Positions 61,673 to 62,232 of a DNA stretch of 62,232 bases are shown one piece after another. The position numbers and the translations under genes were made by a program. The notes under the pieces are model-generated. The model saw only the letters and a list, made by a program, of their open reading frames with translations, did not search any database and was not told the DNA's origin. Each line of letters starts with the position of its first letter. Within the stretch, counting starts at the first letter, position 1. The DNA is from Puniceibacterium antarcticum (GTDB taxonomy: Bacteria > Pseudomonadota > Alphaproteobacteria > Rhodobacterales > Rhodobacteraceae), in the NCBI RefSeq assembly GCF_002760615.1, contig NZ_AWWI01000079.1:1-62232 (forward strand). Reading direction: 5' to 3'.

Positions 61673-61858
61673 GTTTCATTCATCCTCATTCTAAGGAATT
61701 GCGTTGGACCGGAGTACCCGTTGAGCGAATAAAATATGGTAAATGGAGGTTCAGTTTGTGCGCTGCGTGTCCCTTAAGGCCGAGGGCATGACATCGTCGC
61801 CGCCGGATTCCGGTAATTTTCTTCTCTTGTCATCATGGCCCAGAGGCCACGCGCCATC

Positions 61859-61895
61859 CATTGCCCGGCAACACATGCTTGCATGTGTGAGAGGG
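61859..61895. repeat. Hairpin mini-element, copy A
   Basis: A 37-bp insertion after CCATC: left end CATTGCCCGGCA, a perfect hairpin ACACATGC-TT-GCATGTGT, and right end GAGAGGG. It interrupts the IS110 transposase at the codon pair where AAC-AAG-ATG-GCG would read through. Confidence 0.7.
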
Positions 61896-62048
61896 ATGTT
61901 GGCCAGCGCAATCGCGGCAACCATGCGTGGCTTGCGGGTCAGCAGGCGCTTCAGCCAGCCATTTTTTGGGGTGTCGAACCGCTCGACAGCCTGAAGGACT
62001 GCCATGGCTCCAGAGACCAGGAGGGTGCGTATGTCACGCTGTCCCATC

Positions 62049-62089
62049 CGTTGCCCGGCAGGGTCATGCGCAGCATGGTCCCGAGAGGG
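62049..62089. repeat. Hairpin mini-element, copy B
   Basis: A 41-bp insertion after CCATC: left end CGTTGCCCGGCA, hairpin GGGTCATGC-GCA-GCATGGTCCC, right end GAGAGGG. It shares its two ends and the CATGC/GCATG stem core with copy A, but the outer stem bases differ with compensating changes. Confidence 0.7.
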
Positions 62090-62232
62090 TTCGAGGTCTT
62101 CCCGAGACTGGCCTTGCCACCCGTCGAGTGCTGCTTGGGCACGAGCTCAAGCGTCATGCCAAAGGCGTGCGTATCGCACGACGCATTGATCATCTGGGTG
62201 CGCTGGCCGACGAACATCTGCCGCGTGCGAAA

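Follow-up and report, generated by a model that had tools for sequence, protein, structure and literature searches.

A family of hairpin insertions of about 40 bp in transposase genes of Puniceibacterium antarcticum and related Rhodobacterales

Insertion sequences (ISs) of the IS200/IS605 group insert 3′ of a short fixed target without duplicating it, and Rickettsia palindromic elements occur inside genes, where they are retained in frame. According to the available parts of two accounts, IS200/IS605 and repetitive extragenic palindromic (REP) systems act on folded single strands, and guide bases 5′ of the stem choose the cleavage site (PMC8266576, PMC6006769). In the accessible part of PMC3733652, the Rickettsia palindromic elements RPE-6 and RPE-4 are equated with CGTC-1 and CGTC-4, two groups of REP-like repeats, and what is available of PMC5009743 gives 81 bypass inserts for Magnusiomyces mitochondria. 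Here, we describe a family of hairpin elements, mostly 36–45 bp long, of which two copies lie in a 62,232-nt stretch of Puniceibacterium antarcticum (contig NZ_AWWI01000079.1, positions 1 to 62,232; the whole stretch is called the window below). The elements of this family are insertions, exact and without duplication or loss of target bases, placed after YCRTC and before G in either orientation, and most copies with identifiable surroundings sit in transposase genes of several IS families.

Exact insertion into occupied and empty sites

Both window copies interrupt the remnant of an IS110-family transposase gene at the contig end and read, as the initial annotation had described, CCATC followed by the element with its terminal GAGAGGG, with lengths of 37 and 41 bp. 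The features of the locus are as follows.

61792–62232 (to the contig end), minus strand: C-terminal part of an IS110-family transposase gene, a remnant hosting both elements (92% DNA identity over 315 bp to the IS110 copy L315)
61854–61858, plus strand: target pentamer CCATC of element 1, fitting YCRTC (sequence and target logo)
61859–61895, plus strand: element 1, 37 bp, with head 61859–61870, hairpin 61871–61888 (short class, no bulge) and tail 61889–61895; it reads CATTGCCCGGCA-ACACATGCTTGCATGTGT-GAGAGGG directly 3′ of CCATC (pattern, covariance model, empty site in L315)
62044–62048, plus strand: target pentamer CCATC of element 2 (sequence and target logo)
62049–62089, plus strand: element 2, 41 bp, with head 62049–62060, hairpin 62061–62082 (long class) and tail 62083–62089; it reads CGTTGCCCGGCA-GGGTCATGCGCAGCATGGTCCC-GAGAGGG directly 3′ of CCATC (pattern, covariance model, empty sites in L315, L323 and L181)
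62166–62184, no strand: edge of a deletion that removed about 319 bp from the centre of the IS110 gene, with a palindrome that is ordinary IS110 sequence (alignment of IS110 copies)

Three short IS110 pieces of the window gave no direct Pfam match; the host is IS110-like through its DNA match to L315 and L323, two loci found through Transposase_20 (PF02371). L315 (G000:C118) is an IS110 copy of the same genome with a Transposase_20 match and an open frame of 291 aa. Neither window site holds an element in this copy, whose sequence matches the joined flanks with no indel. L181 likewise lacks both elements, and L323 lacks the second only. The first site is also occupied in three further IS110 copies of this genome, namely L323 (1384–1420), L005 and, truncated, L302; the element there is identical or related, 37 bp long, with stems ACACATGCTTGCATGTGT, ACACATGCCTGCATGTGT and ACACGTGTTTGGATGTGT. 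Thus, element 1 has been passed on together with an IS110 lineage. The initial annotation had named intact homologues already carrying the inserted bases as a finding that would speak against insertion: L315 carries them at neither site, whereas at site 1 a related element is present in the three copies just mentioned (two in C36, the truncated one in C134). The occupation of one site in four copies of the same genome, with slightly differing stems, indicates that a laden IS110 lineage has multiplied or been duplicated. A “third scar” proposed in the same annotation proved to be plain IS110 sequence beside the deletion; it lies at 62166–62180, reads CGTGCGTATCGCACG (its reverse complement had been given) and is also found in L315 and L320.

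To extend the comparison beyond the window, the joined flanks of family members were aligned with uninterrupted homologues, yielding 91 comparisons, 73 of them with a clear coding frame. In 58 of these 73 coding insertions the 6 columns next to the junction were free of gaps; the remaining 15 had one or two. As there is no indel at the junction in these 58, no target duplication accompanied the insertion. The set was drawn from 176 elements under exclusion of homologues with ≥97% identity and of alignments with more than 8 gaps, so that occupied homologues and duplications of at least 9 bases could not appear in it. In genome G013, a single IS3 holds four elements. Apart from these inserts, it can be aligned from end to end with IS3 homologues free of elements, and all four places are empty in two relatives, L363 (Pseudorhodobacter turbinis) and L364 (Pseudosulfitobacter). 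The target logo, based on 136 strict elements kept from 205 loose matches, gives YCRTC for the five bases 5′ of the element, with T at −2 in 74%, C at −1 in 79% and G at +1 in 81%, and the pentamer CCATC that had been noted as common to both window sites fits this wider consensus.

Short, repeated, non-coding and inserted in many places, the elements could recall miniature inverted-repeat transposable elements (MITEs) or debris of IS ends, i.e., short derivatives of DDE transposons. We find this scarcely credible, as their ends, CATTGCCC and GAGAGGG, are not terminal inverted repeats and the 58 gap-free junctions show none of the target duplication that characterizes MITEs.

The same position in diverged IS copies may hold different stems (L056/L167, L078/L093 and L052/L098; also, with flanks similar by eye, L104/L109/L137/L153), which suggests repeated independent hits or a replacement of the stem at a fixed site. 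These three pairs, together with the occurrence of element 1 in four IS110 copies of this genome, would also be expected of selected regulatory hairpins (attenuators) that are inherited with the IS and are not mobile. Such an origin is very improbable, since the sites differ between and within IS families, the tested sites have empty relatives, both orientations occur and the insertions usually disrupt the reading frame.

Structure, distribution and hosts of the family

Family members share the head CNYTGCCCGGCA, a variable complementary stem and the tail GAGAGGG. Among 142 strict elements we counted 110 different hairpins, nearly all of them complementary. In a long class of 41, 43 or 45 bp, one T bulges out three pairs from the foot and the loop has three bases; a short class of about 36–40 bp is free of bulges. 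An alignment of 150 out of 188 matches from 100 loci (135 distinct rows) formed the nine main pairs in 97.4% of cells and contained 231 double-change cells vs 64 after shuffling, a number reached in 0 of 500 shuffles. The foot pair is G-C or G-U in 131 of 134 cases and the foot bases are conserved as GGCA and GAGA. The 28 G-U wobbles at the foot lie on the strand as written, suggesting that this is the strand that folds. The fold energies of window elements 1 and 2 as linear DNA are unremarkable (z −1.12 and −1.06), so that the evidence for structure comes from comparison. Two 68-bp members (G000:C54:6352-6419 and G000:C42:58648-58715) carry an additional hairpin in the loop of the main stem.

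The pattern C[AG]TTGCCCGGCA-N(14-30)-GAGAGGG matched this genome 16 times, compared with 0 matches for the reversed-pattern control. A covariance model trained on 32 elements, each 41 bp long, recovered at least 61 copies at E ≤ 0.01 (150 of 6,842 candidates scored). Relatives carry copies as well: the strict pattern was present in 30 of 149 sampled Rhodobacteraceae genomes, at least one of which (G028) has as its only match a sequence without the family stem. These further copies and the compensated change in their stems bear out the initial annotation, which had read the two window elements as members of a family of selected hairpins inserted after a common pentamer and would have abandoned this reading had no relative contained another copy. 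In a class-level sample, 7 of 289 genomes matched, three from the same family and four from outside it; among the latter, only G264 and G342 had a family-like hairpin.

A scan of species genomes returned at least 117 stretches, mostly Rhodobacterales by record title and including chance matches such as L070, L121 and L123 (L121 and L123, which have no stem, were excluded from some flank analyses). A 41-mer query found 73 plasmid records, 40 of which are plasmids of one genus, Pseudosulfitobacter; among marine strains, Dinoroseobacter shibae has six places on one 86-kb plasmid and Pseudorhodobacter turbinis has five places. At 59 of the 60 best places listed, no annotated feature, or no annotation, lay under the match in a gene table that is itself incomplete. 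One 41-base consensus query had no match among 50,697 phage records. IMG/VR provided 45 stretches, with 11 rows reaching a stem score of at least 6, one of them (L396) unlike the family. Rfam gave one irrelevant sub-threshold match only, and in titles and abstracts of the open-licence PubMed Central literature we found no description of the hairpin family, matches to motif strings being unrelated by title.

We collected 172 reading frames flanking the elements and compared 144 of them with Pfam. These frames match transposases of the IS3, IS5/IS4, IS21, IS66, IS110, IS256, IS481/IS240-like and IS630 groups, where the IS group behind each Pfam family is our own assignment. Of 39 families, the best 25 were all of transposase, integrase-core or helix-turn-helix (HTH) types except Flavodoxin_5, Phage_integrase and Phage_int_SAM_4, and further alignments added RelE, each of these four with one member. 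For 118 frames at the 61 sites of this genome, 20 of 22 Pfam families were of transposase type, including five generic HTH domains; the exceptions were Topoisom_bac (1) and YscW (2, weak). These summaries are totals per family, not per site, for at most the best 25 families. At 46 of the 61 sites the flanks are homologous to an element site in another genome, and six more are ISs by other evidence (both window sites, the C188 and C49 sites that overlap Transposase_20 matches, C181 and C92:222), so that at least 52 of the 61 copies lie either within ISs or in flanks homologous to the site of another element. The IS110 gene and the AAGATGG context to which the initial annotation had tied the elements are true of the window sites; the family extends beyond both.

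Intergenic or non-IS copies also exist, in G108 (L275, L276, L278 and L279), in the contexts of L059, L079, L081, L099, L143 and L152, and in L367. The four G108 copies share about 25 bp upstream that contain AAATAAACTC or a similar sequence, as if embedded in a larger chromosomal repeat. At L367:3025-3063 the element lies between two genes of what resembles a gene transfer agent cluster, on a contig filed as viral. In L127, L157, L158 and L220 the elements occur in a common flank, which in L220 adjoins an IS110 remnant; this flank could be the non-coding IS110 end where the bridge RNA would lie.

With respect to the interrupted gene, 41 elements are antisense and 32 sense (p = 0.35), and a wider count gave 79:58 (p = 0.09). 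This mixture argues against RNA splicing or ribosome bypassing, i.e., against the elements being bypassed in translation or removed from the message so that the IS remains active, for which sense orientation would be expected. In favor of such an explanation are the window element 1, which is common to several diverged IS110 copies, and the laden IS3 of G013, of which six copies match the four-element query over the whole 1,316 bp at 99–100% identity, while no element-free full-length copy was found in that genome:

L165 / G013:C1, positions 76821, 475668, 810132, 1268335, 1530030 and 2094386: six IS3 copies, each with four elements, two sense and two antisense

The two orientations thus occur even within this one IS. 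Moreover, inspection by eye shows no match between the triplet preceding each insert and the one at its end, and supply of transposase in trans from a lost or related copy is the simpler explanation. We therefore rejected bypassing or RNA splicing as the main explanation and regard it as improbable; the six laden copies stay unexplained without supply in trans. Three copies read at both ends (L190, L194 and L195) have no obvious target duplication in the flanks of the IS3 itself.

Open frames of at least 250 aa numbered 65 at 251 sites as found, 83 with the element skipped exactly, and 55 and 54 when one or two bases too many were skipped, a weak signal because antisense frames swamp it. In a protein-based count over 204 windows around elements, a homologous frame crossed the site in 74 with the element skipped vs 44 as found, and was full-length in 6 vs 5, so that for most laden ISs these counts do not demonstrate an otherwise intact state. 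As the six laden copies in G013 show, ISs can evidently multiply after being hit, by supply of transposase in trans or by something less ordinary.

Joined ends and a dumbbell as possible mobile form

When an element is read as a circle, the tail GGG runs into the head CNYTGCCC and forms GGGC-NYT-GCCC, and the most variable head positions, 2 and 3, fall in the loop of this joined-end hairpin. Its four pairs (1-5, 6-41, 7-40 and 8-39) contained 10 double-change cells vs 0.5 in shuffled alignments (0 of 500), and slid controls reached at most 3. With 240 distinct elements anchored only on GGCA-stem-GAGA, compensated pairs other than C-G were found 10, 9, 3 and 5 times at these positions, respectively; some rows of this anchoring and of the head-variability profile are displaced by 1–2 bases. 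Circular folding gave all four pairs in 136 of 146 elements with RNA parameters and in 122 of 146 with DNA parameters. The linear strand, too, can form pairs 6-8/39-41, which leaves 1-5 as the one pair that specifically indicates joined ends. On its own, this pair would close a three-base loop of hardly any stability; it would have to stack on 6-41 across the junction of the ends, which points to selection on a closed dumbbell.

The family probably represents a non-autonomous mobile element of about 40 bases whose mobile form is a single-stranded dumbbell circle of 37–45 nt, perhaps moved in trans by a Y1/HUH-like enzyme. Judging from the covariation, base 1 would pair with 5 and bases 6-8 with 39-41 in a single strand with joined ends, and the resulting four-pair helix, closed by its three-base loop, would complete the dumbbell. 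By analogy with the Y1/HUH enzymes that act on folded single strands and move IS200/IS605 and REP elements, a trans-acting enzyme might cut target and circle and join them. IS genes could be over-represented because the element survives and spreads between species by riding in ISs, so that recipients without the enzyme would show it mainly inside ISs; alternatively, ISs may be the preferred targets.

Several observations weigh against this mobile, circular form. One-sided departures exceed compensated pairs at each of the four joined-end positions (14, 27, 10 and 6 at 1-5, 6-41, 7-40 and 8-39), linear strands form three of the four pairs (6-8/39-41) in 132 of 146 elements, and for none of the three examples shown by the folding is the predicted circle more stable than its linear counterpart. 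Window element 2, folded as linear DNA, does not adopt the family structure. Joined-end sequences did not exceed background in DNA, with 0 exact occurrences in 411 loci and 4 one-mismatch occurrences in 149 genomes, the reversed pattern giving 3. No Pfam match was obtained for many flanking frames, among them 16 of the 20 submitted singly, in part because antisense frames were also submitted. Finally, neither the Y1 search in this genome, nor the scan of Y1 loci, nor association across the Rhodobacteraceae linked an enzyme to the element: Y1_Tnp is absent from G013, G063, G067 and G108, each with 6–10 pattern matches, and elements lie near only 1 of 30 Y1 loci (about 1.5 kb scanned on each side), namely L220, apparently by coincidence.

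Y1_Tnp occurred in 16 of the 149 Rhodobacteraceae genomes, 7 of them among the 30 pattern-positive ones (Fisher p = 0.02), and the sole Y1 match of the P. antarcticum genome carries an internal stop. A Y1 transposase as the sure mobilizer was rejected on this weak association. The Y1 gene of L220, the one such gene flanked by elements on both sides, was rejected too, as we read it as an ordinary IS200 inserted in an IS110 remnant. None of the 30 Y1 loci showed an autonomous TnpA-encoding element with matching ends; ends with the head or the tail alone, as a larger autonomous element might have, were seen among the loci examined only as decayed, truncated or chance cases, and no simple Watson-Crick match between guide and target was visible by eye.

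A bolder version, which we consider doubtful, sees in the family a gene-less parasite of ISs, a covalently closed single-stranded dumbbell of 37–45 nt, DNA or RNA, that inserts precisely in IS genes and can also leave them, so that ISs with up to four copies still multiply. If true, such a dumbbell would rank with the smallest known transposable units and would be a parasite of other transposons, or a brake on them deployed by the host. The hairpin family contributes a mobile unit close to the lower limit of size, whose sequences give evidence of a joined-end (circular) state, and the smaller mobile element has its main habitat in transposons themselves. A class of frameshifted IS pseudogenes in Rhodobacterales may also be accounted for by the family. 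How palindromes without a transposase move, a question open for CGTC REPs, can be tested with this family, since its empty and occupied sites are exact and can be compared.

Comparison with described systems

The Rickettsia palindromic elements are, like the family, palindromic repeats of Alphaproteobacteria; in the family, frames are usually broken and the hosts are mainly transposases. Short inserts that break frames inside genes are shared with Magnusiomyces mitochondria, as far as the accessible part of PMC5009743 describes them, whereas the family occupies bacterial IS genes in both orientations and gives no evidence of bypass.

The nearest description is that of the CGTC REPs (Di Nocera et al. 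2013, PMC3733652); in the part of the paper available, the stem and the tail that define them differ from those of the family. These too are small palindromes, mostly alphaproteobacterial and some of them intragenic, with a CRTC-like motif at one end and no dedicated transposase known. Size, palindrome and bulged stem resemble REPs as well, and some family copies are intergenic (e.g., L276 and L367). It is therefore conceivable, though in our view unlikely, that the elements are REP-like palindromes of a known kind, CGTC or GTAG, moved by a TnpA-REP transposase, with nothing special about their ends and targets. In the CGTC REPs, CGTC stands directly at a stem of 8–9 bp that starts with A-T, and the tail is CCA-like; in the family, 12 conserved head bases separate CRTC from a stem that begins with G-C, and the tail is GAGAGGG. 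CRTC is already present in the empty target and so does not belong to the element. Exact insertion, at identified sites mainly within genes, those of transposases, rather than extragenic, and the covarying joined-end helix further set the family apart.

The REPs tagged with GTAG and mobilized by REP-associated tyrosine transposases (RAYTs), according to the accessible part of PMC8266576, resemble the family in their folded single strand, in some cases with a bulge in the stem, and in cleavage 5′ or 3′ of the structure. Family members lack the GTAG tetranucleotide at the stem foot, no RAYT gene was found linked to them at the 30 Y1 loci scanned, of which only L220 has elements nearby, and they reside mainly in IS genes. 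With IS200/IS605, the family shares exact insertion 3′ of a fixed short target without duplication. IS200/IS605, as portrayed in the available parts of PMC6006769 and PMC8266576, also have a hairpin near the ends, like the family, and obligatory single-stranded circles, for which joined-end covariation is an indirect indication in the family; the family differs in consisting of one hairpin instead of two ends, without a gene and with about 40 nt in all.
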